Positions 6,524 to 57,433 of a DNA stretch of 64,000 nt are shown piece after piece (the first letter of the stretch is position 1; every line of letters starts with the position of its first letter). The translations under genes and the position numbers were made by a program. The stretch is from contig OZ004587.1 in the NCBI GenBank assembly GCA_963924555.1, forward strand, positions 4,836,001 through 4,900,000, in the 5' to 3' direction. The DNA is from Crambe crambe. Its lineage: Eukaryota > Porifera > Demospongiae > Poecilosclerida > Crambeidae. The notes below the pieces were generated by a model. It was given only the letters and a program-made list of their open reading frames with translations. It made no database searches and was not told the origin of the DNA.

Positions 6524-6580
6524 CTATATAATATAATATTATGACACATCATTGAACTGTTTATTTATTACTAACAGTAC

Positions 6581-10915: not shown

Positions 10916-10919
10916 AAGT

Positions 10920-13848: not shown

Positions 13849-13854
13849 CTTTTT

Positions 13855-16559: not shown

Positions 16560-16680
16560 CTATTTGTGACATTTCTAGAGTGTGGTTTGGGGAGATGCTG
16601 CAACATTTGATTGAAGCACGAGAACGGGCAGCATTGTTCAGGCCCACGCTGGCCCTCCACTGCTCCATACTGACAGGCAT
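16560..16680 (-). CDS. Gene A exon 1 (start exon)
   Basis: The ATG at 16678-16680 begins MPVSMEQWRASVG, and the exon ends at donor ATAG/GTTGGT after 40 codons plus one base (phase 1), which fits the 2A exon's entry. It matches gene B exon 1 (41776-41905) residue by residue in the first half (MEQWRASVG, NNAARSRA). The stretch would precede the hydrophobic leader and 2A motif. Confidence 0.75.
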
Positions 16681-31494: not shown

Positions 31495-31551
<57 letters not shown>

Positions 31552-33369: not shown

Positions 33370-33870
33370 CTAGCTACATATATTTTCTGCATTTTTCTGT
33401 ATAAGCTCACATATTTTTTCAACAGTGTTAGAATCTTCTCCCTTTAAACAAGCCTTTAAAAGGTTTTCATATGTTGCATCTGCTTTAGCCTTTCCCTTCC
33501 AAACAAGTAAAACCTGTTTCCTGTAGATTCATACATAACAACTGTCATAATAGCAGCTTAAAAAATGCTTCTGAGCTGTATGACTGCCCACCATTACCTA
33601 TTATTCATTAGTTACCACTAACCTCTCTATGATAGGTTGGGTAGGATCACTTCTGCCTACTTTCTTGATATCTGAAATATCAGTTTGTGTAAGATGCAAT
33701 TGAACTGCCAACTTTGTCTCCCATTCAGTTATATGTTTGGCTATCTCAGGAAGATCACGATCAGAGTCCACTATAGCCTTCAATCTCCACTGCTTGGAAG
33801 GATCAATGAGCTGGTCGACATATTCTTTCAATTCCTCAGACATTTTCTGCTTCTCAGCCATTTTCTGAGA
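33370..33870 (-). CDS. Gene B exons 9-10: C-terminal Death domain
   Basis: Exon 9 (33616-33870) and exon 10 (33370-33513), both phase 0. Together they encode a Death fold: EELKEYVDQLIDPSKQW, ITEWETKLAVQLHLTQTDI, then VWKGKAKADATYENLL and ending NAENICS before TAG. The intron inside the Death domain differs from the single-exon N-terminal Death domain, so the two Death domains have separate origins. Confidence 0.75.
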
Positions 33871-36800
33871 CTATCGAAAAATATTGCTTTCATAGGATAG
33901 TTATACATACTAGCTAGGAACATTTTTATTTTCAAGGTATTTCTTAAGAGTGCATATGTAAGATGTGTCCTTACCTCTTCAAACCAAACTCTATGCATTG
34001 ATTCCAAACAAATTGGTTTCTTTCTTTTGGGATTTTGTAGACACTCCATGAACTTTGCACCTTCTTTGGCTAGCACACAGAGGTGGTCTCTCCCTGGATG
34101 CTTTGGGCACTCAAAGCAATACTTGTATTTCATGTCAAGCTGGTGATATGTGTGAGATGTCACTCTCTTCAGAGTGGACCAGATAACACTGCGAACATGG
34201 GCACACAAATCTGCAGTTGAGGTATGATGTTCAGATTCTTGACGTGTAACAACAACTTCGATATACAAAGGTCGTGAGATTAGGGTCACCACATTATAGT
34301 CGTCGCCAACATAAAATTCTACTTTGTTTTTGCGTATAGCATCTTCGATCATCTCCCACCCATCTAGTCTCTGGGATACAATGCTGGTGATCATGTAGGT
34401 GAATATACCCATAGGCACATAACCACACTCGGATTGTAACATTAAAGGAGCTGGATCATGACTAGAAGTCTGAACTGTTAACTCGTCATTTCTTGCACTC
34501 TTCAGGATACTTGGCATAAAGTATACAGTTCCTTGAGCTCTTTTTGAGGTTACAGGAGTCAAAATATTTAGATGTTCCAGAAGTTTAATGAGCTTGTCAA
34601 GTGGGATGAGGGAAGTAGAGCCCAACATGGCTTTTTCTATATCTCCTTGTGAAAATTGCCCACTTTCCTTAATTTCTGTTGCTCTCCTTCTAACTTTACT
34701 GAATGTAAATGTCTCCTTAGCAAGCTTTGTAACACTATCGAATATGACTTGCACATCACAGATGACTGTGTCTCCCAACACTTTGGGATAGTAAAAAATC
34801 AGACCATGATAGTGCAGGAACCACAATGCCTTCTGCAGCTCACTGGAGCTGATTTGAAGATTGCCTGCTAGTTCATCATAATCCTCTAACTTCATCACAC
34901 GTAATTTTTTTCTGCGTATGCATATACTGAACATCAACCAAGAAGCGGGAATTGTGACCTTTCCAAAGCTTTTTTCAATTATATTTTCCAGAACTCCTCG
35001 TATTTTGTTCAACTCATCTTCATCACCATCAAAGTTATTGACTGCCAGAATCATCTGATCCTCGTAGGCATTCTCAATTGTTTCGTTTTTGTAGAAGCTT
35101 GTGTTTTCGATTCTTTCCTTCAGGAGTTTGTCCTTTTCCCTCAAGTCTTGGTCAGTTACCATGTCTCGATGTGTTCCCACAAAAAGAGCTTTAGATTTGA
35201 AGTGATTTGAATATTTTTTTGTAGCGTCGTTTTCAAGAAAGAACTCACTAAAGCATTCAATGCCAGAAAGAGCCTGAAATAAGACTTCTTCCACAGTCAA
35301 GGTAGAATCTTCCTTATCAGTCGACACACCGTCTTCATTGGTATAACATACTTTATAAAGACTATCCAGTTGGTCTGTCAATCGGCTGAAGAGTAGATAC
35401 AGGGATGGACCCATGACAAGGGCAGCATGCATTTCCAAAAACTCAGCATGACCACCAGTGTCAGTATTTATCAAGAGCACGGTATCATTCAGTAGGTACT
35501 TCACCTTGTTCCAATCTTCAGATTCCATTGATTCTTGGAAAGCAGAAAGCACTTCATGCTCCATAGATTTGGTGGGGTCAGATATTGGTGATGAGGCTCT
35601 GTATTCTAAAGCTCTATCAGATTCAATGTGGAGTTGTAAAGCTGCACTTCCTTCGATGAATGTGCCTGAATCTTTCTCTGCTCTCGTGGGTTCACTGTTT
35701 GCTACTTGGTACAACAACTGATTGTATAACCCAGCTTCTTCTTGAAGGTTTTCTACTTTTGACCATATTCCTGATGAAATGGTAGCAATTTCAGTAGAGA
35801 GATTCCTGATAATAACCAGCCCTCTCTCCTCCACTACACCTGTGCTTGGTTGCTCCTTCTTGTTGGCTGTCAATATATTCAAGATCTCGCCCATTAAACG
35901 AAGCAGGGTGGACGTCTTTCCTGAGCGAGGAAGACCAAAACAAACGAGCCGAACAATGTTGATATCTACTGTGAGTTTATCTTTAATGATCTTCAAACAG
36001 GCATTCATGTGTTGCTGTATCTCATCATGGGATGTAGTAACTAAAGAATTGGAAGTAATGAAAGTCTATAATTATCATGGCACTACAACTTACATGTCAA
36101 ACTGCCATGTGAGAAGATCTTGTGGTTTGTGTGACCAATCAACTCTTTTAGTTGCTCCAAAGTGCATGTTTCCCAGTCTAATTCTGGATGGAGTACAAAC
36201 TCCTTCAGATCTGGACAATGCTTGGCAAAGTCACACAGTCGAGTGTTACGTCGAAAAGATTCCAGTGAACTAAGATAACTCTTCATATTCTGTTTGAGAG
36301 AACGGTCTCCAATGTTACGAATAAGGTTTTCTAAGAGTGTGTAATTCATAAAGTCCCAGTATTTACTCAGCTTCATCCAAATAATATCGATGGTCGACTC
36401 ATTTTCTAGTTCATTTTCAATTTGTTGGAAGAAGTCTTTGTGTTCTTCTTTGCACTTGATCGGCAATGTCATGAGGCGAACTTTGAATTGATGGACAGTA
36501 TAATCTTTTTTAATTTTATCATATGTCCGAATGGAGATGTCGTTAAAATCATCTTCAAGGTCTTGTATTTGCTGTAGAATGAGGAGACCTGCAATGTACA
36601 AATAACAGGTATTAGAAGTCTATCCTAAACTCTGAGGTATATGTAATGATTATTGTTATGATATTGTTCAGATAAGGAAACTCTTCACCACATTAAGATG
36701 AAAAGGATGTGTATAAAATAAGATTATGGCTGGGCAGATTAACGTACAGTGCACATAAAAAATTATATTTATATGCATATGGCCATGCATTGTCTGGTGA

Positions 36801-39800
36801 TAGCATATGTAAATATCTAATCTTCCTTGAAACTTCTGCTCCACTAAATGTCTAGGTCATTGCATAACTTTTTGGCTCACTCTATTACTCTATTGTTATG
36901 ACATGGATTCTAGTCTGGTCGATTGTAGGCTATATTTAATAGCTTATAATACTGTATAGCTGGTTATTTTTGAGGGATAATATTTGTGTGGTTTTCGTGG
37001 TTGAAAAAAAACTACAAATTTTTTCCCCACAAATAAATTAACAACGCGCACCCGTTCCATCTGGCACCACCCCCTTAGCAAGCTAGCAATGTTTCTAGAA
37101 GATTGTTAAAATAGGCTCCGATACTTTAAACGCAAAAAGACTTGTCTTCCAGATTCCCAAGGCCCCCTTTCAAGGATGGTATGCCTAATAATGAGCCACT
37201 CTCTTGGGGGAGGGAGGAAGTAGTCTTGGTACTGGATTGAAATTTCTGGTTCGTGTGGGCACATTTGCCGAACCTATTACAGAAGGTGAAGGCAATTGGA
37301 AGGTGAGGTTGAATCCATTAATTGTTATGGACCAGGTTTATTTGTAACGCCATGTAGCCTTCAATAAAAAACTGAAGACTTTCTACTTAAAGATCTAGCT
37401 GCCATGAAGCCAGGGAACAAGACTCAAATGAATGGATCGAGGTCCTAGCCCCAAGCCCGCCAGGTTCCCTTAATTATAGAGACACTCCAAATCCATAATA
37501 AGTATACACTGACTGGCTTGTAACAAGCTTGATTCATATAAAAATGTCCAAAACTCCCTTCAAGAGGTCCCTTTTCCCAAGTAAATTCAGATCACAAAAA
37601 TTTAGAGCTCTATTGTATATAACATACTTCTGTCTCTTTCCTTGGCCACTCTTTTGGGGAAGGGAGGAAGTAGTCTTGGTTCTGGATTGAAATTTCTGGT
37701 TTGTGTGGGCACATCTGCTGAACCTATTACAGAAGGTGAAGGCAATTGGAAGGTGAGGTTGAATCCATTAATTGTTATGGACCAGGTTTATTTGTAACGC
37801 CATGTAGCCTTCACTAAAAAAAAAACTGACAATAAACTGAAGACTTTCTGCTTAAAGATCTAGCTGCCACGAAGCCATGCAGGGAATGAGACTCAAATGA
37901 ATGGATCAAGGTCCTAGCTGAAGACTGAAGACTTTCTACTTAAAGATCTAGCTGCCATGAACCCAGGGAATGAGACTCAAATGAATGGATCGAGGTCCTA
38001 GCCCCAAGCCCGCCAGGTTCCCTTAATTATAGAGACACTCCAAATCCATAATAAGTATACACTGACTGGCTTGTAACAAGCTTGATTCATATAAAAATGT
38101 CCAAAACTCCCTTCAAGAGGTCCCTTTTCCCAAGTAAATTTCAGATCACAAAAATTTAGAGCTCTATTGTATATAACATACTTCTGTCTCTTTCCTTGGC
38201 CACTCTTTTGGGGGAGGGAGGAAGTAGTCTTGGTTCTGGATTGAAATTTCTGGTTTGTGTGGGCACAACTGCTGAACCTATTACAGAAGGTGAAGGCAAT
38301 TGGAAGGTGAGGTTGAATCCATTAATTGTTATGGACCAGGTTTATTTGTAACGCCATGTAGCCTTCACTAAAAAACTGAAGACTTTCTACTTAAAGATCT
38401 AGCTGCCATGAAGCCAGGGAATGAGACTCAAATGAATGGATCGAGGTCCTAGCCCCAAGCCCGCCAGGTTCCCTTAATTATAGAGACACTCCAAATCCAT
38501 AATAAGTATACACTGACTGGCTTGTAACAAGCTTGATTCATATAAATATGTCCAAAACTCCCGTCAAGAGGTCCCTTTTCCCAAGTAAATTTCAGATCAC
38601 AAAAATTTAGAGTTCTATTGTATATAACATACTTCTGTCTCTTTCCTTGGCCACTCTTTTGGGGGAGGGAGGAAGTAGTCTTGGTTCTGGATTGAAATTT
38701 CTGGTTTGTGTGGGCACATCTGCTGAACCTATTACAGAAGGTGAAGGCAGTTGAAAGGTGAGGTTGAATCCATTAATGGACCAGGTTTATTTGTAACGCC
38801 ATGTAGCCTTCACTAAAAAAAACAAACTGACAATAAACTGAAGACTTTCTGCTTAAAGATCTAGCTGCCACGAAGCCATGCAGGGAATGAGACTCAAATG
38901 AATGGATCAAGGTCCTAGCCCCAAGCCCGCCAGGTTCCCTTATCAGAGAGCGCGGTAGCGCTCTCTATGTAGGGATGACCTATGACCCTTCATAGGACTA
39001 ATACAAAATGAAGTTGGATTTTCTCAGAAAACAGTAAGTTGTAGCTGCTATGACTGCTTACCCTGTATTTCATGCACATTCTTATCATGCAGAAAAATTT
39101 TGGAGGCTGAAAGACTTAACACGGAAGAGCAGTAAAAATGCACTTTTTCATGATTTCTTATTTTCTTGTTCTTAATCATAATAATCATATTCATCATGCA
39201 CGATCTGGAGAAAAACTGGGCCGCGCTTGGGCCATGTTCTATATATGAATCTGTTCCATTTTACTCGGACCAGGTCCACGTACCATCGGTTTAGCTTCTA
39301 GTGTACTCAGAAAAAAGTCGCTTTCTTAATAGCCTGTCGACTATTGAGCGGCCATTAAGCATGAACGCTCATGCGTGCGTAGTTACCATGACACGACACA
39401 ATTACAATGTCATCTCTCAGCTGAGCGAGTGTGGTGTATTTCTTGACTTCACAATTTTGAGATAGCTATCTAGCTATAGCTAACCTTTGAGATAAGCTAG
39501 CTAGCTATCTAAGTGTCCATGATTTCCAGTCTCAACCTTGCATACATGCACCTGAGACTTGAGGAACTATTTGGTGGACACAGTTGGTTCGGTGGGGAAA
39601 ATGTTATATTTGTAGGTGATTTGCTTCAGTTGCAGCCTGTTAACGGTAGTCCTGTGTTTGAAATGATATCCAAAAAATCACTATTCCCAATGAAGATCCT
39701 TTTTGTTCAATCTACAAAATATAACTCTCCAATGATAGTTACTGACACAATAATGCATTGTATTGTTTGTGCCTGATATTCTTGAAGCAACTTCATATGA

Positions 39801-41905
39801 ACTTACATTAAAAATAGCTATTACACAAAGCTCAAAATAGCTAAAATTAATACCCGTCAAATACGACGTGCAAGAAATCAACCACGCGCGTCCGTCCCAT
39901 CTGGTGATATATGTTTCTGGAAGATCGAAAAAAGAAGCTTTATTCCGATACTTTGAATGCAAAAGACTTGTCTTCTGGATCCCCAAGGCCCCCCCTTTCA
40001 AGGATTGTACCTTCTTCACTGGTGTAGAAGTTGCTATGGAAGATTGTCTATAGGCAGAAGGCATAATAAGTACGCTAAATATGATCCACATACTGGCTTC
40101 TACCATGAATGAGCACAATTAACTTCTACTTCTAGGACAGGCACCACTGGACTTGATTTTTGCACTCTTCGTTCTTTGAACTAGCTAGCTAGCTAATAAT
40201 TTAGTAAGCTACTTCTTCCTTTATTCATAATCATAGGCACTAGAATTACACAACAGTTATGTATTACGTAGCTACAACCATAATTTACTTTCTTTTGCTT
40301 TTGTCTTCGCTTTCGACCATCCAATTTACTTTTGTCTTCGCTATCGCTTTCGACCATCCACGAAATTTAACCACGAACAATTTCATTCCCCCCATAACAC
40401 AACCCCTTGGAAATAACCCGATTTTATGCAATCAAGAAAGTTTGAGTACACCTTTTGGAATTTCTCCTTCCATAGGAAGTTTTGGACCTTCCATGGTAGA
40501 TGGAGGTGAGGTGGAGTCCATTGGATGTGATGGAGGAGTCACAGGACAACCTGCAACAACAGAATAACTGATTAGAAATTTACTCTCCTCTTCAATAATT
40601 ACCTTTGAGAGAGATGTTGTGAGTGTTGCTAGTGGCAGTGATGGTGTCCTTGAGGAAAGGGGAGGTGAGGTTGATTTGGCAAGTGTATTGACCAGCATGG
40701 GACAGAGAGAGAGAAGGGAAAGAGAGAGTGTTGTCTAAAGACTCAACCAGCACTACTCCATTGTGACTCCAGCAGTATGTGATGGTAGGACTGAAATCTT
40801 CAGCACCTGATACAGTGCAGGAAAGGCAGTATTTCTCCTCCACTGAGGGGTTGCCCCCAGTAATCACCACTTCGATTGGAGGGGCTATATAATATAATAT
40901 TATGACACATCATTGAACTGTTTATTAATAACAGTACCTGCTAGATATATTTGGTGTTCTCTGGCTATCTTCATGGCCAGATTCTTGTGTCCCACACAGG
41001 GCTTCTTCAGAGCTTCCAATAAACCCTCCCATGAAGGTAAAGGGTCAACCATTTTCAGCCACTCGGAGAGCATCTCTCTGAAGCAAGCCTTCACGTCAGT
41101 GGGATTATCTTTTTTGATGGTCTGCAGTGTTGATTCACTGAGGTCCAACTCCAGTCCTAGGTCATACCACTCAGTCTTGGCATCCCAAATAACATTGCGC
41201 ACTTTTGACAGGTTTGCTGGAACCATCGAGACTGTAAGTAGTAAATATTATTTTTATTAATTTTCTACTTGGTACGTAAACTTCAACGTTAAAGAACTAC
41301 TTGACTGACATCCTGGACCAGGGTTGGTCTCGACGTCCCCAGCACAGTGTAGTAGACAGCATATAATGGTGATAGAGAAGGCCACAAATAAGTACACACC
41401 AAGTCCTTTCAATATCCTCTGTTTGCTGCAACCTCCAGGGGCTTGGGTCAAACAGGAAGTGTCTGTTAAGGTAAAAGGAAAACCCAAAATTAATGAATGT
41501 GTTAATAATAATTATTTGTAGATACATTTGCAACAATAAGAAACATTTTGCTGTGACCTGACCACAGTATTCACTTTCATGTTTACTATTGTTATTAGCT
41601 ATGTGGGCACGGGTGACAAAGTAACACTGTTATATATCCAATGTCCGGCCACTATCGTAAGATCTGGTAAAGGGTCTTCAACATGGTAAAGGGTAGTCAT
41701 GCTACTAGTTTGAATATGGGGTAAAGGGTGATCATAAGTACTACTATATCACATTCACATGCTAGCTGAACTGACCTATTAGCGAGAGTAGGAACTCTTC
41801 CAGGATTTTGTTGGGAGAAATAGAGTGGCATTTCATTAAAGCACGAGAACGGGCAGCATTGTTCATGCCCACACTGGCCCTCCACTGCTCCATACTGACC
41901 GGCAT
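33370..41905 (-). CDS. Gene B: 2A-Death-Ig-helical-Roco-Death receptor gene
   Basis: Exons: 41776-41905, 41301-41462, 40938-41231, 40603-40884, 40452-40550, (40011-40033 microexon), 36094-36588, 33975-36040, 33616-33870 and 33370-33513 (TAG). Leaving out the microexon, every junction keeps frame and the sum is 1309 codons. Order of domains: start exon, hydrophobic leader with GDVETNPGP, Death, Ig, Pro/Ser linker, shortened helical domain, Roc GTPase with COR region, and C-terminal Death domain. Roco proteins are GTPase scaffolds; here the N-terminal part is the same module as in the NACHT-LRR genes A and C. The 23-nt microexon would shift frame if included. No transcript evidence is available. 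Confidence 0.8.
33975..36040 (-). CDS. Gene B exon 8: Roc-COR (Roco) GTPase core
   Basis: Acceptor TTTAG at 36040, donor GAAGAG/GTAAGG at 33975. The exon encodes a P-loop GLPRSGKTST, a DTGGHAEFLEM switch-II-type motif (DxGG with an extra Thr), a GTHRDM motif in the place of NKxD, then a COR-like part with ALWFLHYHGLIFYYP. A His/Cys-rich stretch (CFECPKHPGRDHLC) lies near the C-terminus. Roco proteins couple Roc GTPase to COR dimerisation. A long insert between P-loop and switch II distinguishes this protein, a feature seen in many invertebrate Death-type Roco proteins (from memory). Confidence 0.82.
36094..36588 (-). CDS. Gene B exon 7: helical domain shared with NLR genes, shortened
   Basis: A 495-nt phase 1-1 exon (acceptor TTGCAG, donor ACAT/GTAAGT). 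Its first 120 residues closely match the N-terminal helical domain of genes A and C (MTLPIKCKEEH, NYTLLENLIRNIGD, SFRRNTRLCDFA). It then has internal deletions relative to them (CPDLKEF, HTNHKIFSHGSLT) and ends where the NLR genes continue into the NACHT. This shows that the helical part was copied and joined to the Roco exon. Confidence 0.8.
37197..38940. repeat. Tandem array of a roughly 450-bp unit, about 3.7 copies
   Basis: Units start at 37197, 37647, 38201 and 38652, each with CACTCTTTTGGGG... near the start and ...CTTTCCTTGG at the end. Spacings are 450, 554 and 451 bp; the second is longer because an internal segment (CTGAAGACTTTC... to CTAGC) is itself repeated. The last unit is cut at 38940 by a hairpin element. 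No coding sequence. Confidence 0.9.
38943..39140 (-). mobile_element. Helitron-like 3' tail fragment with terminal hairpin
   Basis: A hairpin (AGAGAGCGCGGTAGCGCTCTCT, given in two parts: stem AGAGAGCG with complement CGCTCTCT) follows directly where the tandem unit is broken. The next about 170 bp match 59848-60000, the region downstream of the Helitron helicase gene. Read on the minus strand this gives a tail that ends with a hairpin next to the target, as in Helitron 3' ends. Confidence 0.6.
39511..39682 (+). pseudogene. Fragment of Helitron PIF1-like helicase
   Basis: The plus strand encodes SSLNLAYMHLRLEELF, then VIFVGDLLQLQPVNGSP, closely matching the helicase at 62830-63000, including the motif III region (GDLLQLQPV). 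The fragment is about 57 codons and in opposite orientation to the adjacent tail fragment, so it is a rearranged internal piece. It ends exactly where the duplicated intron sequence of the gene A/B family begins. Confidence 0.85.
40011..40033 (-). CDS. Gene B exon 6: microexon, 23 nt (one base short)
   Basis: The same acceptor (CCATAG) and donor (GTACAA) as in genes A and C, but CAACTTC where A and C have CAACTTTC. With 23 nt it would shift the frame into exon 7; skipping it leaves the frame intact. Confidence 0.5.
40452..40550 (-). CDS. Gene B exon 5: Pro/Ser-rich linker
   Basis: A 99-nt symmetric phase 1-1 exon encoding CPVTPPSHPMDSTSPPS and GPKLPMEGEIPK, nearly identical to gene A exon 5. 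Confidence 0.65.
40603..40884 (-). CDS. Gene B exon 4: Ig-like domain
   Basis: A 282-nt phase 1-1 exon; CTVSG, TYCWSHNG and SHAGQYTC carry the Ig cysteines and Trp. Nearly identical to the copies in A and C. Confidence 0.82.
40938..41231 (-). CDS. Gene B exon 3: Death domain, uninterrupted
   Basis: A 294-nt phase 1-1 exon (acceptor TTACAG at 41231, donor GCAG/GTACTG). Encodes about 98 residues with the Death-domain plan: MVPANLSKVRNVIWDA, WYDLGLELDL, STLQTIKK, FREMLSEWLK and SWEGLLEAL, then LAMKIA. It is the empty-site reference for the transposon in gene A: CTTTTTTGAT is uninterrupted at about 41109-41118. Confidence 0.85.
41301..41462 (-). CDS. Gene B exon 2: hydrophobic leader with 2A-like GDVETNPGP
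   Basis: A 162-nt phase 1-1 exon. CSKQRILK is followed by a hydrophobic run (GLGVYLFVAFSITIICC) and LLHCAGDVETNPGP. The C-terminal motif fits the 2A consensus exactly, and the exon ends four residues after it. The exon is almost identical to gene C's (57272-57433). Confidence 0.88.
41776..41905 (-). CDS. Gene B exon 1 (start exon)
   Basis: ATG at 41903-41905 begins MPVSMEQWRASVGMNNAAR; 43 codons plus one base to donor ATAG/GTCAGT (phase 1). Together with exon 2 it gives a leader of about 90 residues before the 2A break. Confidence 0.78.
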
Positions 41906-42172
41906 GGTTACAGTATCAGGGAGTACTACCTGTGGAAGAACAAGGCAAGGGTGAATTCCACTCGATTGACTTCAGTGGATATCACCAATAACTGGTTCAA
42001 CATACATCTCTTATTCCCACAAAATCTCATTACCTATTATTATCGAGGAAAATCCTTAGCTAGATAGGACACTTTCGCTGTCTCACTCTGGGAAGACTAC
42101 CCGATATCGATTTGGTTAACTAAAAGTCGGATTCCTCAATCATAGATAAATAGCTAGGTCACGTTGTTCCTT

Positions 42173-42210
42173 CTACATGTGTGGGAGGAGCTTGTAATAT
42201 GGGCGTGGTT
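42173..42210 (-). promoter_or_regulatory. Conserved upstream block of gene B
   Basis: TCTACATGTGTGGGAGGAGC and a following GGGCGTGG, shared with 17021-17060 upstream of gene A. Possible promoter element; no start site can be assigned. Confidence 0.35.
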
Positions 42211-42940
42211 ATAATAAACGCATGTGCACATGCCATGCATGAGCGAGCAAAATTAATATCATTCGCGCACCATGCTGGAACAATAATAACAAGAACCAAA
42301 GTTCGGTATATATTAGCTACTGTAATTAGTACTGTTTCAAGAACATACTTTTTCCAGCAAGGTGATAAACTCAACTCTAGGCAGGAGCATAATGAATCGA
42401 ATATCTACAAGAAAGTAGCAAAAAGCATTAGCTATAAATTGCCATAGCTCTACCCCTTACCAGTGGCACATCCCTGTGACAGGTAAAGAATGAAAGAGAG
42501 ACCTATTGCTAAATTCATACCATTGTTCATTTGATAACCCTGACTTTGAAAAGTCCCCCAAGTTCAGAATCTCAATGTGTACTGAAGCCAGGAGATGTTC
42601 TTTAGGCCACTATTGGTTGGTTACAAGTTTCTCATCCCCCGCCCGCATTAGTTTACTCTATCTACAGGATTTGGCCATTATAATTGAATTTCTATACCGC
42701 ATCACTTCTGACTGTATCAACTCCTGTGGTTTTTCCAAGAAAATGCTGACGTAATGGCTTAAACTATGCCGCCCGCCCGCATCAGTCTGAGCAAAACCAT
42801 CTGATGAGAAACTTATGATCAACAAATAGTGGCCTTATGTACCCATGTACTGGTAGGGTAGGGATAAAGATTTTCAAAGTGTTCAGGTGAAAATAACACA
42901 CCATTCATCACCTGAGCTGACCCAAGTTAATTGTATATAC
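42211..42940. other. No gene seen
   Basis: Partly related to the upstream region of gene A (to about 42390), then single-copy AT-rich DNA without a recognisable coding frame. Confidence 0.45.
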
Positions 42941-43146
42941 CATTTTTTCCTCTCGTTCAGCCACTTCCAGTTGAAATGTACAAAATCATGTTTTATACTT
43001 GTCCCAACAGCATCTGTTGAAGTGTCCTGATAGTAAATGAATTCATCTGTTCTCCCTATTATGTGGGTCTTCAGTTCATCCACAAACTTGGAGAAGGTCC
43101 ACTCTCTCTTCTTCATCAGTTCACGGAAGTCAGGGTAGTTCCTCAT
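42941..43146 (-). CDS. Possible exon of unknown gene (NYPDFRELM family)
   Basis: A 206-nt stretch with acceptor CATGCAG at 43146 and donor AAAATG/GTATAT at 42941, encoding RNYPDFRELMKKREWTF, FVDELKTHI and FNWKWLNERKKW. A decayed copy of its start (MSNYPDF) lies at about 44880-44895. I do not recognise the domain. It may belong with the PHD-like exon at 44528-44584 on the same strand. Confidence 0.4.
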
Positions 43147-44527: not shown

Positions 44528-44584
44528 CTGACATCCTTCATAGTAGACATGGATCCAATGATCACACTTCCCACACTGCACCAT
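44528..44584 (-). pseudogene. Exon with partial PHD-type zinc finger
   Basis: A 57-nt exon between TTCTTCAG and GTACCT encoding VQCGKCDHWIHVYYEGCQ. CxxCxxWxH is the PHD core, but the Cys expected three residues after His is Tyr. Around it are duplicated fragments (44634-45065) with a broken frame, so the gene is probably decayed. Confidence 0.5.
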
Positions 44585-44633
44585 CTGAAGAAACACAATA
44601 CGTAACAAGTAGCTATCACTACGTCGATACATT

Positions 44634-46837: not shown

Positions 46838-47180
46838 GATTAGAAGCAATGCTTTAATGACCCCATAATTATGACTTGACATGATACAACACCAACATCA
46901 TTACATGCAGTGATATGGAAGGACAAGGGAAAGTATGATGAGCTGATTATTGCACACCATGTTACCACAAATCTATACCGTCATTAAACACAAGGTTGCT
47001 TGGTCTATTCCTACAGAAAGATGAGGACTATGCAACCATACAACATAAACATCACAAGTTTCTACCAGCAATAGTCAACACTCAACGTCTAAAACTGAGA
47101 TCACATCAAAGTCCTAAAACCAAGCAGTATGATCACATCACTGTCTCTACATGTCTCATCAAGTATCAATTGTAGAAATC
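46838..47180 (-). repeat. Duplicated 3' flank of NLR genes (copy 3)
   Basis: Matches 976-1330 with small deletions; lies next to the LRR relic 47255-48310. Confidence 0.7.
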
Positions 47181-47254
47181 AAAAGTTTCCCTCATGCACT
47201 CATGGACCACCACTACATGCACACATGCATACACATAATCACACAGTCCTCACC

Positions 47255-48310
47255 TTAATACAGCCACACCACTCTAGGGTCTGCTGGTCGCTCATATCTC
47301 AATGGTAACCAAAGTTCTGTTAAACTTGTGCTCTGCTGTAGACTTGATAGGATTACATCAACTCCTTCTTCAAATGAATCATCTAAACATAGACTTAGTA
47401 TCTTTAGTGAAATGCTTTTCTCTAGCATCTCACTCATCGCCTTAGCTCCTTCAACTCCAATATTATTGCCTTGTATCCCTAAATGTAACAAGGTGGAGTT
47501 TTCAGATAGTGCTGCAGCGATGTGAATGCATCCTTGTGATGTTATTTCACAGTGATGTATACTTAGGTATTCTAACACTGCATTGGTTTTAATCGCATCA
47601 CCAATGGAAGCTGCTCCAATATCGCCTATAGGGTTACTCCCTAGCAAAAGCACTGTGAGTGATTTGCTGACGGCAAGACCTGCTGACAACTGCACAGCTC
47701 CCTCACTCGTAATTTCACAACTTTTTATACGAAGTCTTTCTAACACTGCATTAGTTTTAATCACATCACCAATGGAAGCTGCTCCAATATCTCCTATTGG
47801 GTTCTCCTTTAGTCAATATGGTGAGTGACTTATTGACGGCAAGACCTGCTGACAACTGCACAGCTCCCTCACTGGAAATATCACAGTTACATATATCAAG
47901 GACTTCTAACACTGCATTAGATTTAATCGCATCACCAATGGAAGCTGCTCCAATATCTCCTATTGGGTTCTCCTTTAGTTGTAATTCGGTGAGTGATTTA
48001 TTGATGGCAAGAACTGCTGACAACTGCACAGCTCCCTCACTGGTGATACCACAAGAATTTAATATTAAAGTCCTTAAGCTCGTCAGTGCACATGTGAGGA
48101 GTTCAGACAAAAGAGTTGAGGAAATTACATTAAGTTTATTATTTGAAAAATCCAATTCAATAAACTGCTGGAGTATAGGATGAGGGATGTTTACAAAATG
48201 TTTAATGCTATGAATGTCACAGCACCTAAAGTCAGCACTTGTTACTTCTCCTTTCCAAGTTACTGCTCTCATCTTCATCAACCCTTAAGAAAATATTTCT
48301 ATTCCCTCAT
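47255..48310 (-). pseudogene. Truncated NLR relic: end of NACHT module and LRRs
   Basis: Encodes the segment from KMRAVTWKGE through LRR units to RPADPRVVW. A small deletion near 47810-47820 shifts the frame, and TAA at 48285-48287 replaces the AAA (Lys) of gene C just before GLMKM. Homology stops abruptly at about 48310, so the NACHT core is absent. Confidence 0.87.
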
Positions 48311-50344
48311 TTCCCATATACCGTAGTAGCTGTGTGAGGGAATGGGAGGGGGGAAAATTAATCACAAAAATAATATCTGATACCATAGCTAAAAACTAGA
48401 GTATGCAGCTTTTTGAACTAGAAGAAATTGATGGCATACTTAATTTCATTTGGTGATCAGACTTACCTACATATGCATAGTTATTCCAGTTGTCCTGGAA
48501 ATGCTCAAAGCTCTAAGCCAGACCCACGATTAAAAAAATTTTGTACTTAGTAATTAAAAAAAAAAAGGCCTGCTGCCATGTGTAGTAGTCCAACTCAAAT
48601 CATACAGCACATGTACAGTACAAGTATTAGCTACGCCCAAGTTGCATGATCCCTGAAACTGCTACATACGTACAGACCCCCTTCCTCCCTTGGGTTGGCA
48701 ACGGGTAGAATGTACACATACAGTGGAGGTCAGAGTCTGATGATCTTTACCTCATGCAGATGTGGGGTCCTCCCACTGGGATGGGATCAGTTATAGTCAC
48801 ACACACCATCCACTGATAAATAGCTATACAACAATTATTATTTACATGCCACAAATATAATGCAAAGTGCATTGAGAGAAATGTAGTTTGCAATGTTGTG
48901 GCCATCAGGGTTTAGACCTATAGCTTTCTAGAATAAATACATACTTGGTTAATGAGTTTGATGCAGCATAATACTGCATCTGAAGATCACTTGGTTGAAG
49001 GATGGTAGATTGTAGTTGTAGTAACTAATCAAGTCAGTAAAGTGTGAGAACTTAGTTATAACTACCTGTAGCTAGTGTAAGTACAATAGTGATCTATATC
49101 TACTTGGTATACTCAACTATTTTGAGAGAGTCTATAGCAGTGAGAATACTGACCTACTTGAACTCTGTGGTTGAGAAGGGAACACTGCTACACTTCATTG
49201 AAGCTGCACGAGAACTGTTCAGGTTCCATGCATACTGACAGACATGTTACGTATGAGCGTAAAAAATTTCATCGAAATAAAAATATGAAGTAGGGATGCT
49301 ATTATAGAGAGTGATGATGCGGAAGTGGGATTTAAATATAGACTGCAATGTTTGACAACGCGTGGGAGAGCTATAGCCACACCTCCTAAGATTAACATCC
49401 TGCTGGGTTGATATATAAAATTTAATGTGTAAAAGACACAAAGTGAAAGATACAAAGTGAGCGGTTTTTAAATGTACAAAGAAAGTGAACAAAGTGTTCA
49501 ATTATATAAAAAGCAGATACAATATTATTTATAAGGTGTATAGTGGTAAGCAAACTAGTAGTTACTTTCTTTCTCTGTTTTTTTCTTGCTTGTTTTTTGT
49601 TTGTTTCTTTCTTTTCTTCTTCTTTGACAAAATTAATGGTTGAAGCTCAGAAGGTAAAATTTAGGCTTTCAGATCTGTGAAAATCAAAGTCACAATGTAA
49701 ATGTTGACTGTTGACTGTAAATTTAAACACATTAGTATAATACAGGAAATCTCACTCATCCAAAAATACTATTCTGAGTTACAGGGAAAAATTAATGAGA
49801 GTTATGGGCATCCCTAGCATGTGGTCAATCCAGTGGAACTTCTGAATAATTTGAGACCTCAGTCTTTTGTCGTTCATAGAGAAGTTGTCCTCTATTAAAC
49901 ATTATTTAGTATAGAGTATATACAAAGGTTGTCTTTTGTTGAGAGTTTTGCCCTCTTTCAGAGTGTCCTTATCAGAGGTTCCATTGCTTGGTCTTACAAT
50001 TATAACTTTCAATATAGTTACTGGTTGGTGAGTAACAGTCTATGTCTGTGACTTCAGAAATAGCTATAGCTAATACATCAAAGAATGAACCCTGTACCCA
50101 CCGACCCACAATAAATTGAGCAATGGTCACATAGAGGGAGGCATTATAGTCCATGCAAACATGATATTGTGTTTGGTAAACTGTGTTCTAGGTACCATGT
50201 ACAACAATGATTATTAATTACTTCAATAGCAAGAGACATAACAGTAGAGTTAGAGATGGCTGTCCATAAGAACCAGTGGGTCACAAGGACCATATTGAAT
50301 TTCCACTTGTATAGGGAAATATAGTATGATATGCTATCTTGACA
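48311..50344. repeat. Duplicated intergenic segment between two NLR units
   Basis: Ordered similarity to 19800-21825 and 44634-46837, including a start-exon relic (about 49190-49245, MSVSMHG then stop) and a Tigger-like MITE at 49831-49985. No gene is seen. Confidence 0.6.
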
Positions 50345-50700
50345 GTATCAGATTAGAAGCAATGCTTTAATGACCCCATAATTATGACTTGACATGATAC
50401 AACACCAACATCATTACATGCAGTGATATGGAAGGACAAAGGAAAGTATGATGAGCTAATTATTACACACCATGTTAGTCATTATCACCACAAATCTATA
50501 GTGGACATTAAACACAAGGTTGCTTGGTCTTCACTTCAGTACTCCTACAGAAAGATGAGGACTATGCAACCATACAACATAAATATCACAAGTTTCTACC
50601 AGCAATAATAGTCAACACTCAACATCCAATTTGATGATCACATCAAAGTCCTAAAACCAAGCAGTATGATCACATCACTGTCTCTACATGTCTCATCAAG
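50345..50700 (-). repeat. Duplicated 3' flank of NLR genes (copy 4)
   Basis: Nearly identical to 976-1330, downstream of the intact gene C. Confidence 0.75.
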
Positions 50701-50772
50701 TATCAATTGTAGCATGGACCACCACTACATGCACACATGCATACACATAATCACACAGTCCTCACCTTATTA

Positions 50773-53700
50773 TCACCACTTCACTCTAGGGTCTGCTGGT
50801 CGCTTGTATCTCTTTGATAACAAAAGTACTGTTAAACTTGTGTTCTGCTGTAGACTTGATAGGATTACATCAACTCCTTCTTCATATGAATAATCTCTAT
50901 GTAGATGTAGTTCTTTTAGTGAAATGTTTTTCTCTAGCATCTCACTCATCGCCTTAGCTCCTTCCACTCCAATAGCATTGCCTTGCATCATTAATACTAA
51001 CAAGGTGGAGTTTTCAGATAGTGCTGCAGCGATGTGAATGCATCCTTGTGATGTTATTTCACAGTAAGCTATATCAAGGTGTTCTAACACTGAATTAGTT
51101 TTAATCACATCACCAATGGAAGCTGCTCCAATATCTCCTATTGGGTTGTGCCATAGTTTTAATTTGGTGAGTGACTTATTGACGGCAAGACCTGCTGACA
51201 ACTGCACAGCTCCCTCACTGGTAATTTCACAGCAACCTATTTCAAGGTGTTCTAACACTGCATTACTTTTAATTGCATCACCAATGGAAGCTGCTCCAAT
51301 ATCTCCAATTGGGTTCCCAAATAGTTCTAATCTGGTGAGTGATTTATTGATGGCAAGACCTGCAGACAACTGCACTGCTCCCTCACTGGTGATTTCACAG
51401 CCACTTATTTCAAGGTGTTCTAATACTGCATTAGTTTTAATCGCATCACCAATGGAAGCTACTCCAATATCTCCTATTGGGTTCTCATATAGTTCTAATT
51501 CGATGAGTGACTTATTGACGGCAAGACCTGCTGACAACTGCACAGCTCCCTCACTGGTAATTTCACAGCCACCTATTTCAAGGTGTTCTAACACTGCATT
51601 AGTTTTAATCGTATTACCAATGCAAGCTGCTCCAATATCTCCTATTGGGTTCGAATTTAGTTCTAATCTGGTCAGTGATTTATTGACGGCAAGACCTGCT
51701 GACAACTGCACAGCTCCTTCACTGGTGATACCACAAGAATACAATATTAAAGTCCTTAAGCTCGTCAGTGCACGAGATAAAAGAGTTGAGGAAATTACAT
51801 CAAGTTTGTTGTTGCCTAAATCCATTTCAATAAACTTCTGAAGTATAGGATGAGGGATGTTTAGAAAATGTTCAATGCTATGAATGTCACAGCCCTCAAA
51901 GTCAGCTCTTGTTATTTCTCCTTTCCAAGTTACTGCTCTCATCTTCATCAACCCTTTGGAAAACATTTCTATTCCCTCATTTCCCATATATGAATTACAA
52001 AAGTATAATTTCCACTTGCTTTGAGAATATGCCATAGAATGGCCCACCACGAAGTAATCAAGAGGACTCCATTCATGAGATGATAAAACTTTTATTAACT
52101 CACGAGATGCCAGCAGATTAGAAACTGCCTCAGTATCACCAGATTCATACATCCAGTGATAGGCAGCAGCACTGTTATCATCTGAAATATGCTCTCGAAT
52201 CATTTCTGAAGTGAAGGTATTAAACTTGGAGAGACCGAAATAGAATTTCATCACCACGCTCAGGTGACCTACTTTGACATGTTCTCTTATTAGCTGCTGT
52301 TGTGTGTGGAGAGGCAACTGTGTGATGTGGTAGGCAGCTAGAAACTCTTGAAGCGTCAGATGGATGAAGTGGTAGGAGAGCTCGGCATCCTGTCCACGAT
52401 AGAGCTCTTTCACTGATTCCATCAATCCTAGAGTCACTCCACCGATATCAGCACTGCTGAATGTCAGCTGTTGCTTCATGATTCCTTCCCAAGCAAGTTT
52501 GCTTAGGGCCAGCAGCTGTTGATGCACATCTGGAGGGAGGTCCTCAAGAGATCCAATCTTCCAGGACTGTTTGCCGTGTGCCTTATGACCTGAAAAGTGC
52601 TGCATCAGCAGTTTACATGTATACGCTGTGTAGAGTCGGGTAACGGTGGTTGGGGGGGTTGACTCCATGTCTCGGCTCCTCTTGAATACATCTGTCACTA
52701 TGTTGGCAGTCACAGGAGTGTGCATGGCTGCCTTCATTGCTGGATAATAGTTCACATAGTCCAAAAATTTGCTACGGTTGTCAAGATGAACCCTCTCTTC
52801 CCTCAATACTCGACTTAACTCTAAAGTAGGAGTCGTGACAAGCTCAATATGCTGGTCCACTTGGATTGATGTGCTCTCGATGATTAACTTTGTGGCCCAT
52901 GGTCGGCTGGTTATGATTATGGTAGCTTTGGGTAGCTTGCGACCATGTACTAAATCAAGGAATATTGAAGATTCTTCCCTCATTCTTTGTTCCAGTTCGT
53001 CCCAGGCTTCCAGCCACAGGACCACACCCTCTCCTTGGCTGCTCTCCACTTCCTGTGCTATGGCCCCCTGGAGCTGAGGGTGGTGGAAGAGGTCAGAGAT
53101 ACTTTTGGCTGACCTCACTCTGTTGTCTCGTAGGGGAAGGAGGACCAGTAGGGCGTAGTCATTTAGACATTGGCCCTGAGACCACTTGGAACAAAATTGT
53201 TCACTGAATGTGGTCTTGCCCACACCTGGAGCTCCTTCAATCAGAACTAGTCGTGGTTTCTTCCTATATGCGGCCTTAGCAACTTTTCCTTCTGTCATAG
53301 AATATTTCTTGTAGATGACATCATCTTTGTCTCCCCTGATCGTACTCTTAGTGAAACTGTCCATTTTACTCCGAACAATCTCCTCCTTCTCTATTCCTGC
53401 CAGTTTGAAAGCAGTGAGGTTCTTGCCCTCCATGGTGGAATAGATGTCCTTCAGGAAGGCTGCATACTTTGGAATACTCGAATATTTATATTCTTTACCA
53501 TCGATGGTCATGCATTTGATTTTGTGTTCCTTGAAGAATCCTTTATTGTCAGTGTTCTCCAGGTCCTGCACTAAAGTGGAGGCGATCTGAGCAGGCAGCA
53601 ACCATGTGACTATCAAACTGCCATGTGATACTTTCTTCAAGATGAGGGCAAAGGAGGGGAGGAGGAACTTGCGGATGATGTGACCTTTCAACTCTTCTAG

Positions 53701-54173
53701 TTGCTCCAAAGTGCATGTCTCCCACTCCAAGTTTAGGTGGAGTACAAATTCCTTCAGATCCGCTTCGCTAGGTCTGCTTTCAACTACTGGACAATGTTCA
53801 GCAAAGTCACACAGTCGAGTGTTACGTCGAAAAGTTTCCAGTGAACTAAGATAACTCTTCATATTCTGTTTGAGAGAACGGTCTCCAATGTTGCGAATAA
53901 GGTTTTCTAAGAGTGTGTAATTCATAAAGTTCCAGTATTTACTCAACTTCATCCAAATACTATTGATGGTCGACTCTTTCTCTAGTTCATTCTCAATTTG
54001 TTTGAAGAATTCCTCATGTTCTTCTTTGTACTTGATTGGCAATGTCATGAGGCGAGCTTTGAATTGATTGACAGTATAATCTTTTTCAATTTTATCATAC
54101 GTCCGAATTGATATGTCATTGAATTCATCTTCAAGGTCTTGTGTTTGCTGTGGAATGGTTTTTTGAAGGAGAC
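50773..54173 (-). CDS. Gene C exon 7: intact helical-NACHT-LRR
   Basis: Acceptor TTGCAG at 54173, stop TGA at 50773-50775, about 1133 codons in one exon. Residues about 1-150: helical domain (NYTLLENLIRNIGD, RRNTRLCDFA). About 160-290: mixed region with HGSLIVTWLLPAQ. About 314-325: P-loop IEGAPGVGKTTF. About 390: WLEAWDEL in Walker-B position. About 640-810: NACHT-associated helices (FIHLTLQEFLAAYHI). About 810-1130: five or more LRR pairs repeating every 56 residues (168 bp) with NPIGDIGAASIGD and CEITSEGAVQLSAGLA. Near-identity of the units at the DNA level points to recent expansion or conversion. Confidence 0.93.
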
Positions 54174-57100
54174 CTGCAATATACAAAATAAGAAGTCTAT
54201 CCTAAACTCTGAGATATAATAATTATTATGTAGTTATGATATTATTGTTCTGATAAGGAAACTCTTTATCACATTAAAAATGAAAAGGATATGTATATAA
54301 AAAATTATGGCTTGGCAGATTAATGTACAAAGTACATAAAAATTAAATGTATATGCATCCATATGGCCATGCACTGTCTGGTGATAGCAATATCTTCCTT
54401 GAAATTCTGCTCCACTCAAAATCTATGTCATTACATAATTTTTTGGCTCACTCTATTACTCTATCAGGGGCGTAAGAAGATGTTTTCTGGTGGGGGGGCT
54501 GATGTATGTGTGCTGATTTGTGCGCGGGAAAATTTTTAGCTGATCACGCCCACTTTCCTTAACCACACCATTTTTGGATACCAATGTACCATCAACTGGC
54601 TCAACAGTGCAGAGGTGTTGGAAGCAAGATTCGATTGGTCAAGCCCAAAATTGAAACAAATTCCCCAGAACACCGAAGTTCTACAGTTTGCTATACTTGA
54701 GCATCATAATTATGTATTTAAGTTATTGATTGATAGCCACATAATAATTAATCCCAAAATATTTTATTATTGATTGATAGCCACATAATAATTAATCCCA
54801 AAATATTTTATTATTGATTGATAGGCACTTAATAATTAATCTTGTTTTTCCCAAAATATTGGTCAGGCCTGGGCCTGACTGGCCTTATCTGTTCCACCGC
54901 CTATGCAGTGGCATCAGTGCTTGTGATTGAGGTCTCTGAAGATGGACCAGCATCATCACTTGCAAATACAATAATTTTTATTATAATGTACATATGCAAT
55001 CTTACATCGATAGTTACCTGAGAACTGAATTGGAGCGATGAATTCTCCTCTGTGTCATAGTAGAGCCAAGCTAACTGCTGAGTTAGGTGTTACTAATACT
55101 TAATTAACCATTCTGTGATGTTAATACTTAGCTAGTAGGTGTTATTAATACTTAGTTGACATGCAGCATCTGTTTTGCATATACTAATGCCTATGTGCAT
55201 TTTGAGTGGGGGGGCTGAAGCCCCCCCAGCCCCCCTGCTTCTTACGCCCATGTCTATTATTATGACATTGTTTCAGATTTTTCTCTAATTGTAATTAGAA
55301 GCAAGGGAAACATGCAACAACAAGCACGTCTACTGGTAATGTTGTAATTTTCTAATCTTGCTATATATTGTATACCAGGTTTTTTTCAAGGGGTATTATT
55401 TTAGAGGGTGAAAGAACCACATATTTTTACCAATGATACCTGATATACCACACGTGTATACCACATGTGCAAGAAATCAACTACATGCATCCCATCTGGT
55501 GCCATCCCCATGGCTAGCTAGCTATAAAATCATTATAATAGACAAAAAAAGGCTTTATTCCAATATTTTAAACGCAAAAAGACTTATATTCTGGATCCCT
55601 ATATAAGGCCCCATTTCAAGGTTTGTACCTTCTTCGCTGGTAAAGAAAGTTGCTGTGGAAAATTGTTTGTCAGGCAGAAGACATAAATCATACACTAAGT
55701 ATGATACATGTACTGGCTTCTTGGACAAATTGGGACCAGGGGTTTTATTCTTTATAGAGAGGTTGTCCTCTTTAAAGAGGTTATGATCAGAATGCAATAT
55801 TTTATACACAAAATCATATTGCAGGGTATTGTGATTATCAGAAGTCAATAACAAGACTTTATAACTTAAGAACTACTGTCATGATCAACAGAGGGGCTGG
55901 CTAGGGACTAGAAATACCTTGTAAATTTAGACTCTACGGACCCAAGGCATACTGTGACAAACTTAAGCAACTTTTAACAAATGCAGGTTTCATTTAATTG
56001 GAATGCATTGCAGTTTTGTCCGCTATTCGGAGATAAGAGGTGTCTGCTTTAGGAGGTAAGTTTACACTAGCAGTTTCATAGAGAGCATTCGGTGCCACTT
56101 AGTTTGTCCGCTCTAGGGAGATTGTCCGCTCTTGGGGGAGTCCGTTAAGAGTATATTCCATACAAGCAAGAAAGATTGAACACACCTTTTGGAACTTCTC
56201 CTTCCAAAGGACCTTCCATGGTAGATGGAGGTGAGGTGGAGTCCATTGGATGTGATGGAGGAGTCACAGGACAACCTGTAACAACAGAATAACTGATTAA
56301 AAATACTATTACGTATTGCTCTCCTCTCTCGTATTAATGATTAGAAATTTTTTACTCTCCTCTTCAATAATTACCTTTGAGAGAGATGTTGTGACTGTTG
56401 CTAGTGGCAGCGATGGTGTCCTTGAGGAAAGGGGAGGTGAGGTTGATTTGGCAAGTGTATTGACCAGCATGGGACAGAGAGAGAGAAGGGAAAGAGAGAG
56501 TGTTGTCTAAAGACTCAACCAGCACTACTCCATTGTGACTCCAGCAGTATGTGATGGTAGGACTGAAATCTTCAGCACCTGATACAGTGCAGGAAATGCA
56601 GTATTTCTCCTCTACTGAGGGGTTGCCCCCGGTAATCACCACTTCAATTGGAGGGGCTATAAATGAAGGAGAGAGAGTCTGGTCAATATTTTATAGCCTC
56701 AAATTGACATTGTCTAATGTGCCTTGATGTTAAGGGGCTACATGGCATTAATGTGGCCAGAACTACATACAAGACAAAAGTTATGTAGCATTCTAATAGC
56801 AGCTGGTTAGGCAACTGGGTCATAGACATTCTTGGGTCAAATAGAAAAACCATTATGTTAGCTACATCAGATATCAGTACAGTAGATTATACTAACTTAC
56901 CATCAAGGAAGACTTTTTCCTCCATTACTATTTTCTCAGCTAAGCTCTTAAATCCAACAGTAGGCTTGATCAGAGCGGACACAACAGCTTTCCATGAGAT
57001 CTCACCCCCACATCCATTCAACCACTCCACCAACATATCAGTGAAGCACGTATCAGGGTCGCTAATATATTTAGATCTTAATACTTGCAGGATGCCAACT

Positions 57101-57433
57101 GGGAGACGTAGCTGGAGTCCAAAGGAGAACCACTTGGTCCTCACTTCCCATAGACAATTTTGAATGTCGGCAAAATTGGACGAAATCAATTCAACTATGA
57201 ATCATAATTAAAATACTACTGAAATTGCATTGTTTCTACTGATATTGCATGCAAAGCATAGCCATAACTACTTGACTGACTTCCTGGACCAGGGTTGGTC
57301 TCGACGTCCCCAGCACAGTGTAGTAGACAGCATATAATGGTGATAGAGAAGGCCACAAACAAGTACACACCAAGTCCTTTCAATATCCTCTGTTTACTGC
57401 AACCTCCAGGGGTTTGGGTCATACAGGAAGTGT
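50773..57433 (-). CDS. Gene C: 2A-Death-Ig-helical-NACHT-LRR receptor gene
   Basis: Exons 57272-57433 (2A), 56901-57194 (Death), 56375-56656 (Ig), 56186-56275 (linker), 55629-55652 (microexon) and 50773-54173 (helical-NACHT-LRR, TGA). All placed junctions are phase 1 and in frame. No stop or frameshift interrupts it. The start exon found in genes A and B is not seen up to 60.5 kb, so it lies outside, has diverged, or is lost. The expected product is a NACHT-LRR sensor whose N-terminal leader is separated by 2A skipping. A hAT-like MITE sits in the intron before the last exon. Confidence 0.82.
54465..55252. mobile_element. hAT-like MITE in intron of gene C, 5-bp duplication
   Basis: Left end CAGGGGCGTAAGAAG, right end CTTCTTACGCCCATG, flanked by TCTAT on both sides. 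The paralogous introns at about 5060 and 36890 read ACTCTATT.TTATGAC without it, giving the empty site. The interior has a 53-bp tandem repeat (about 54717-54830, ATTGATTGATAGCCACATAA) and no transposase. Confidence 0.85.
55629..55652 (-). CDS. Gene C exon 6: 24-nt microexon
   Basis: Acceptor TTCCACAG, donor GTACAAAC; encodes ATFFTSEE. Same length and phase as in gene A. Confidence 0.55.
55653..56185. other. Intron 5 of gene C
   Basis: No exon is seen. The part at about 55990-56150 has TCCGCT/TCTAGGG words of another dispersed repeat. Confidence 0.45.
56186..56275 (-). CDS. Gene C exon 5: Pro/Ser-rich linker
   Basis: A 90-nt phase 1-1 exon with TPPSHPMDSTSPPS. It lacks three codons present in A and B (PKLPMEG shortened). 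Confidence 0.65.
56375..56656 (-). CDS. Gene C exon 4: Ig-like domain
   Basis: A 282-nt phase 1-1 exon with CTVSG, CWSHNG and SHAGQYTC. Only a few residues differ from A and B. Confidence 0.82.
56901..57194 (-). CDS. Gene C exon 3: divergent Death domain
   Basis: Same length (294 nt), phase and exon boundaries as genes A and B, but the protein is strongly diverged: WFSFGLQLRLPVGIL, TCFTDMLVEWLNG, SWKAVVSALI, FKSLAEKIV. The neighbouring 2A and Ig exons are nearly identical to B, so this exon has a different history or is under diversifying selection. Confidence 0.82.
57272..57433 (-). CDS. Gene C exon 2: hydrophobic leader with 2A-like GDVETNPGP
   Basis: A 162-nt phase 1-1 exon, almost identical to gene B exon 2: CSKQRILK, hydrophobic run, LLHCAGDVETNPGP, then GSQS to the GTAGTT donor. 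Confidence 0.87.

Follow-up and report, generated by a model that had tools for sequence, protein, structure and literature searches.

Sea urchins and sponges provide the closest described relatives of the gene reported here; statements on the cited sources refer to the accessible parts of these papers. In S. purpuratus, 2A-like sequences are carried by about 35% (85/241) of the nucleotide-binding, leucine-rich repeat (NLR) proteins, and tests revealed recoding as well as signal-sequence activity (Roulston et al. 2016, PMC4981915). The sponge Amphimedon has 357 NCOA6-clade TRADD-N proteins, up to half of which exhibit unique architectures (Kaur et al. 2021, PMC8195603), and Dysidea avara has 126 genes with NACHT and leucine-rich repeats (LRRs), 25 with an N-terminal Death domain and some clustered on chromosomes (PMC12909245). 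Gene conversion acts on some domains of the zebrafish NLR-B30.2 family and not on others (PMC4852459), and the brown-algal ROCO genes, candidate immune receptors, have undergone exon shuffling (PMC11378527). Here we describe gene B, a predicted gene in a 64-kb stretch of the sponge Crambe crambe (the window; contig OZ004587.1, here C10, positions 4,836,001 to 4,900,000, in a genome of 143 Mb and 119 contigs). Gene B is probably a chimeric receptor gene born within an NLR array, in which an NLR front end has been placed on the Roc-COR core of a Roco protein. As 2A-led NLRs and Death/TRADD-N heads with variable tails are already published, the chimera is a variant of these.

As in the sea urchin receptors (PMC4981915), the NLR genes around gene B carry an N-terminal leader ending in D(V/I)ExNPGP. 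In contrast to those receptors, they have an immunoglobulin (Ig) domain and a helical domain resembling a death effector domain (DED) after the Death domain, and similar leaders, known here from sequence, also precede ankyrin and Roc-COR exons. The proteins of Kaur et al. (PMC8195603) have a Death-like plus TRADD-N head before a variable tail, to which the helical exon of the array may correspond by fold; gene B lacks most of the TRADD-N-like part. The text of that paper does not contain NPGP, "signal peptide" or "skipping", and the Amphimedon tails named in the accessible text of its section 10 do not include Roc-COR. The accessible text on Dysidea avara has no Ig-containing NLR, and "Roco" and "Ig domain" have 0 occurrences in the main text (PMC12909245); an NLR front on a Roco core is likewise not described in the accessible parts of the zebrafish and brown-algal papers (PMC4852459, PMC11378527). 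No description of the chimera was found in titles and abstract openings of the literature on sponge 2A NLRs, TRADD-N, Roco proteins and exon shuffling, a survey that leaves subscription journals mostly uncovered. DAPK-type Roco proteins have a Roc-COR followed by a Death domain. Gene B exhibits the same order but differs from them in its NLR front end, in its last Death domain, which is like an NLR-family Death, and in that no kinase was seen in it.

The predicted model of gene B (41905-33370, minus strand) comprises nine exons that read as a single frame of 1,306 amino acids (aa) without a stop, in the order leader, 2A, Death, Ig, linker, helical, Roc-COR and Death (Table 1). Each modelled joint is flanked by AG/GT. 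Introns 1 to 6, including the one between the helical and Roc-COR exons, are in phase 1, and the Roc-COR/Death intron is in phase 0. The helical/Roc joint exhibits the donor T/GTAAGT, an intron of 53 bp, which resembles introns 3 and 4 of the gene (53 and 52 bp), and the acceptor CTTTAG. In the Roc-COR exon, the only Pfam match is COR-A (E 9e-7; 29.3 bits, under the 35.3 cut-off), which is recovered at E 0.01 or better in 28/28 members of the alignment of relatives, B included. The Roc-COR profile matches PDB entry 4wnr (E 0.00087), which we take to be the Roc-COR structure of a Roco. The Pfam Roc model gave no match in this exon, where the P-loop GLPRSGKTS, DTGGH and THRD were recognised by eye only, and no NACHT domain was found by Pfam in gene B, whose helical exon matches no family. 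The predicted frame bears out the initial annotation in that gene B joins a 2A-Death-Ig front to Roc-COR-Death. The same source had put the placed introns of the series in phase 1, which holds for introns 1 to 6 of B and for the predicted 2A-Death-Ig-linker-core joints of the neighbouring gene A. It had also described the helical exon of B as shortened; this exon is truncated internally, with a donor close to the joint, and is not a separate short exon.

The pieces of gene B differ in their relatives. An NLR near C10:4.816 Mb matches the DNA of gene B from 42955 to 40351, introns and about 1 kb of upstream sequence included, with 97.3% identity across 2,639 columns. The helical exon is more diverged than this front, with 76-92% DNA identity to the copies listed. 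Within this exon, the NLR homology stops at about 36097 (read by hand), and homology to the Roco relatives L070 (on C16) and L072 (on C9) begins at 36078, inside the helical/Roc intron; that to a third relative, L069 (C9), begins at 36026. The homology to all three ends at 33965-33963, just beyond the COR donor. The helical exon is cut internally, has lost its TRADD-N-like half and is joined to a Roco intron. The last two Death exons have no DNA match to these three Roco loci and are 93.6% and 83.8% identical to a Death locus on C9 (L071). Among the 14 best Death relatives, a NACHT match lies within 7 kb in 10 and a Roco within 20 kb in none. With an NLR-like front, a Roco-like Roc-COR and a C9-like terminal Death, gene B thus appears to have three sources.

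The helical exon of gene B, used as a six-frame query, gave 134 matches genome-wide (150 of 222 candidates scored). Eighteen of these fall within C10:4.678-4.979 Mb, all on the minus strand, and correspond to gene B and 17 NLR genes, including genes A and C of the window. The core frame reaches at least 1,000 aa in 15/17 of the NLRs, 815 aa in one and 295 aa in gene C. Pfam, applied to gene A and to database homologs, identified NACHT (50.5 bits) and LRR_6 (126 bits) over the cut-off in gene A. Exon mapping of the 18 loci revealed the common order 2A, Death, Ig, linker and helical. The D(V/I)ExNPGP motif follows a hydrophobic leader (best 15-residue mean hydropathy 2.56-2.83) near the N-terminus in 18/18 loci, B included, and in 18/18 the Ig exon is flanked by AG/GT and its length is a multiple of 3; this conservation places the front module far beyond chance. 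A start exon was identified in 11/18 loci, the search having reached the window end for gene A and about 1.5 kb upstream for six other loci.

Two types of Death exon, about 36% identical, occupy the same slot, with 13 loci of type A and five of type B, and an intron variant preceding the Ig exon is common to all five type B loci. This points to exons or short tracts having been exchanged among the array loci, and the phase-1 exons with two Death types in one slot agree with the earlier proposal that exons can be swapped without loss of frame. The median synonymous divergence (dS) of the Ig exon is 0.014 in the 17 pairs with B and 0.044 in 136 NLR pairs, and that of the helical exon is 0.255 and 0.233, respectively. 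By these values the front exons are homogenised across the array, B included: the low Ig dS and the high helical dS indicate that the front exons of B have remained uniform with those of the neighbouring NLRs, whereas the core of B differs. A phase-neutral microexon candidate of 24 nt is found in 13/17 loci with a complete gap, A and C among them; in the other four, the donor is deleted in two, no microexon was found in one, and gene B has 23 nt. An examination of nine paralogs had left the microexon unsupported, a view overturned for A and C by that of the 17 loci. The microexon placed in the series by the initial annotation is consequently retained as a candidate for A and C, but not for B, where it must be skipped.

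Several observations weigh against a chimeric gene B. Inclusion of its 23-nt microexon would destroy the frame, so that either B skips it or no fusion is made. The intron between the linker and helical exons is 3,863 bp long and contains repeats, which makes an unseen transcript end possible there. An in-frame ATG about 12 codons into the Roc exon could give rise to a shorter Roco protein. The last Death exon seems to lack the donor used in the C9 relative and the preceding exon contains an ATG, so the Death tail may be a leftover. The helical exon exhibits a ratio of nonsynonymous to synonymous differences (pN/pS) of 0.32 for pairs with B vs 0.21 among NLRs. The frame-breaking microexon and the early ATG, together with the pseudogene status of gene C in the same array and the broken LRR fragments of additional NLR copies nearby (47264-48320 and 22259-22998), speak for two units merely standing in line, namely a broken NLR with front exons that still appear sound, and a Roco gene, or a piece of one, that has its own start, with a phase-1 joint that is accidental or rarely spliced. 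We consider this arrangement unlikely, since the intron at the joint exhibits a strong donor, an acceptor that could be used and phases that agree, and since the front exons and the Roc-COR exon are free of frame damage. In addition, the helical exon, if unspliced, meets a stop three codons beyond its donor and has no other long continuation. The ratio of nonsynonymous to synonymous substitution rates (dN/dS) of the Roc-COR exon is 0.30 and 0.29 against two relatives (dS 0.26 and 0.28), by which the exon is constrained, although these ratios cover the whole divergence of each pair, and some of this divergence may be older than the fusion.

A chimera that arose once is also to be distinguished from a recurrent family, as proposed in the initial annotation, in which the whole 2A-Death-Ig-helical module would precede either NACHT-LRR or Roco cores. 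The genome was represented by 60 Roco loci, obtained from 91 rows by merging fragments by hand (best 60 of 460 candidates scored). Gene B itself is the one locus of the 60 that has any of the 134 helical matches at a distance of up to 20 kb; a more distant helical query yielded 136 matches, none of which adjoins a Roco according to a reading of coordinates that was not fully tallied. As a Roco core with the full series was seen at one locus, gene B is, on the genomic matches, one chimera and not a member of a family sharing the whole module. In favour of a family, the protein P0042 (902 aa) exhibits a homologous helical domain ahead of Roc-COR within one separate open reading frame (ORF; 59.8 bits); this second pairing of helical and Roc domains also speaks for the chimera itself. 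Among 203 database proteins, the helical domain is present in 120/120 of NLR type and in 1/83 of the others (Roc-COR type), which is P0042; as each of these proteins is one ORF on a contig, fusions formed elsewhere by splicing would escape the count. Two Roc-COR ORFs in other contigs, P0064 and P0066, contain trypsin-like and PDZ domains.

The 2A leaders found near Roco genes also speak for such a family. A leader lies 4.7-5.5 kb upstream, on the same strand, at 3/35 Roco loci (C8:7073413, C9:7557406 and C9:7567336), the comparison covering 35 of the 60 loci and omitting 25, including all but two on C6, where no leader is listed. The two C9 loci are among the three closest Roco relatives of B among the loci scored. 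Ankyrin exons lie between leader and Roco at all three, and Death-like exons were also recognised there by eye on C9. Another C9 leader (0.51 Mb) is followed, in line, by a Death-like and a helical ORF (54.5 bits for the helical domain), neither of which has a Pfam match, and then by ankyrin repeats. On C3, a Roc-like GTPase ORF that has no Pfam match follows leader-2A-Death exons at a distance of about 7.6 kb. However, no Ig or helical exons were found in the leader-Roco neighbourhoods read (a handful of 2A sites), no leader match lies in the 19 kb upstream of the C16 relative L070, and the second C3 leader-2A-Death copy has no Roc-like ORF within 9 kb. Moreover, a leader near a Roco may belong to another gene, as on C16 (2.09 Mb), where the leader heads a separate gene with a 2A, a Death-like ORF and NACHT in line just downstream. 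A recurrent family with the whole module thus appears very improbable: the front end does occur on both NACHT-LRR and Roc-COR, as had been proposed, but on a Roco core the full series was seen at gene B only among the 60 loci scored. A Roco-2A-NLR polyprotein on C16, where the leader follows the Roco at about 1.3 kb, was rejected, as the downstream 2A-Death-NACHT gene has its own candidate start exon.

The single chimera of gene B stands against a wider distribution of 2A leaders. A DNA pattern for D(V/I)ExNPGP gave at least 150 genome-wide matches and 0 in a reversed control; as the pattern omits the valine codon GTG, 150 is a lower bound, and the C16 leader escapes it. Among 100 listed of the 150 sites, a helical match lies within 5 kb downstream on the same strand in at least 42 and a Roco within 5 kb in one, counted with part of the helical matches and with the 60 Roco loci plus one Roc-like locus on C3. 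A C8 leader, used as a protein query, gave 136 matches at E up to 10. The locus at C8:7.07 Mb exhibits a 2A, two ankyrin exons (the first ankyrin ORF confirmed) and Roc-COR in line, and at C8:0.918 Mb a 2A is accompanied by a weak Death match (E 0.024). L067 and L068 (C3:8.14-8.15 Mb) are tandem leader-2A-Death genes followed by Gly/Gln-rich repeats, the Roc-like ORF on C3 being downstream of L067. L069 (C9:7556600-7564600) and L072 (C9:7567000-7571500) are tandem Roco relatives with a leader 5.1-5.5 kb upstream of the Roc exon; the ankyrin and Death-like ORFs directly upstream resemble, by eye, the C-terminal part of an NF-kB p105-type protein. Both are possible candidates for 2A-ankyrin-Death-Roc-COR genes.

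On these matches, the 2A leader seems to be shared more loosely and more widely than the initial annotation had it, ahead of NACHT-LRR, ankyrin and Roc-COR exons. A bolder proposal, which we hold as tentative and somewhat doubtful, is that the leader, often with a Death exon, would be a genome-wide exchangeable address-and-adaptor head on these three kinds of core, with gene conversion maintaining its uniformity inside arrays even between different cores, and that gene B would be a functional GTPase partner co-assembling with the NLRs that share its Death and Ig.

As a chimera, gene B would have retained the upstream DNA of the array, the leader, 2A, Death, Ig, linker and DED-like helical domain, and a Roc-COR exon from a Roco gene would have replaced the TRADD-N-like, NACHT and LRR parts. 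Its Death tail would stem from exons like those beside C9 NACHT genes. Ribosome skipping at the 2A may give a cytosolic protein that begins at the proline (after PMC4981915). When skipping does not occur, the hydrophobic leader could direct the product to the secretory route, which would suit the Ig domain. In the cytosolic form, Roc-COR may act as a GTP-controlled dimer switch in place of NACHT, with the Death and DED domains as adaptors shared with neighbouring NLRs. As its Death and Ig nearly match those of these NLRs, the product of B could join or regulate their Death-domain assemblies. If B is transcribed as modelled, an NLR input head has been caught moved onto a different nucleotide switch, with the joint mapped within about 20 bp. 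The interchangeability of STAND (signal transduction ATPases with numerous domains) and Roco switches behind one Death/DED head would then become testable, and gene B would illustrate how animals remix innate immune receptor parts. The number of 2A sites, at least 150, suggests that dual targeting coupled to a 2A, as in sea urchin NLRs, may span several receptor classes.

With regard to fold, the modelled helical exon of the array may correspond to a DED-like plus a TRADD-N-like domain. In gene B the truncation falls inside the latter, so a TRADD-N domain is not recovered there, and the confidence score (predicted local distance difference test, pLDDT) of the gene B model is <50 at residues 153-156 and 159-164. 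A PDB profile search with the helical domain gave four weak matches only (best E 0.071), and Foldseek with the gene A model gave nothing under E 0.25. A match to PF13820 was rejected as proof of TRADD-N, as it falls in the LRRs in 4/5 homologs. A MALT1 origin of the Death-Ig pair is likewise not supported: a PDB sequence search with the Death and Ig of B gave 17 matches at E up to 0.1, none of them MALT1, and 12/17 were weak matches to Fc-gamma-receptor Ig domains (best E 0.00073).

Table 1. Predicted features of genes A, B and C in the window.
Gene	Feature	Position	Strand	Basis or remark
B	Start exon, begins MPVSMEQWRASVG, ends phase 1	41776..41905	-	same exon in 11/18 array loci
B	2A exon, GDVETNPGP after a hydrophobic stretch; phase 1-1	41301..41462	-	sequence motif
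B	Death exon, type B; phase 1-1	40938..41231	-	Pfam Death PF00531, E 2.8e-5
B	Ig exon; phase 1-1	40603..40884	-	Pfam Ig_2, E 7e-7
B	Linker exon, Pro/Ser-rich; phase 1-1	40452..40550	-	splice model
B	Microexon copy, 23 nt (24 nt in most array genes)	40011..40033	-	coordinates by hand
B	Helical exon, truncated, DED-like by fold; donor T/GTAAGT	36094..36588	-	NLR homology, model
B	Helical/Roc intron, 53 bp; Roco-derived sequence from 36078	36041..36093	-	DNA homology
B	Roc-COR exon: GLPRSGKTS, DTGGH, THRD by eye; COR-A	33975..36040	-	motifs, Pfam
B	C-terminal Death part 1; like the Death exon beside C9 NACHT genes	33623..33864	-	DNA homology
B	Last exon: Death part 2, stop TAG	33370..33520	-	DNA homology
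A	2A exon	57272..57433	-	
A	Death exon, type A	56901..57194	-	
A	Ig exon	56375..56656	-	
A	Linker exon	56186..56275	-	
A	Candidate 24-nt microexon, AG/GT flanks	55629..55652	-	coordinates by hand
A	Single core exon: helical, TRADD-N-like, NACHT, LRR	50773..54173	-	
C	Start exon	16573..16680	-	
C	2A exon, second type, GDIEVNPGP	14934..15077	-	
C	Death exon, first half	13849..13966	-	second half 6585-6758, beyond ~7 kb insertion
C	Ig exon 6243-6524 and linker exon 6089-6190	6089..6524	-	
C	Helical-NACHT-LRR exon	1385..4970	-	three in-frame stops (pseudogene)

Genes A and C had been annotated as complete genes running from a start exon to NACHT-LRR. The exons of gene A do join, but the 6.5 kb between its 2A exon and the upstream window end yielded no start exon. 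In gene C, a pseudogene, in-frame stops occur at 4109, 2486 and 2150, and an insertion of about 7 kb splits the Death exon. Two copies of a unit of about 6-7 kb lie at 6760-13849 and 27128-33168, and their aligned pieces are 98-99.6% identical. One copy splits the Death exon of gene C, and the second copy stops some 200 bp beyond gene B. The unit exhibits inverted terminal repeats, 7-bp flanking duplications (CTTTTTT and ACAATGT) and a kinase-like ORF (PF07714, E 5.5e-7), and has the appearance of a mobile element that carries a kinase as cargo. Inside the linker-helical intron of gene B, a repeat of about 500-700 bp occurs in tandem at 37195-38942. A long ORF at 23642-25618 resembles, by eye only, a pogo/tigger-type DDE transposase.

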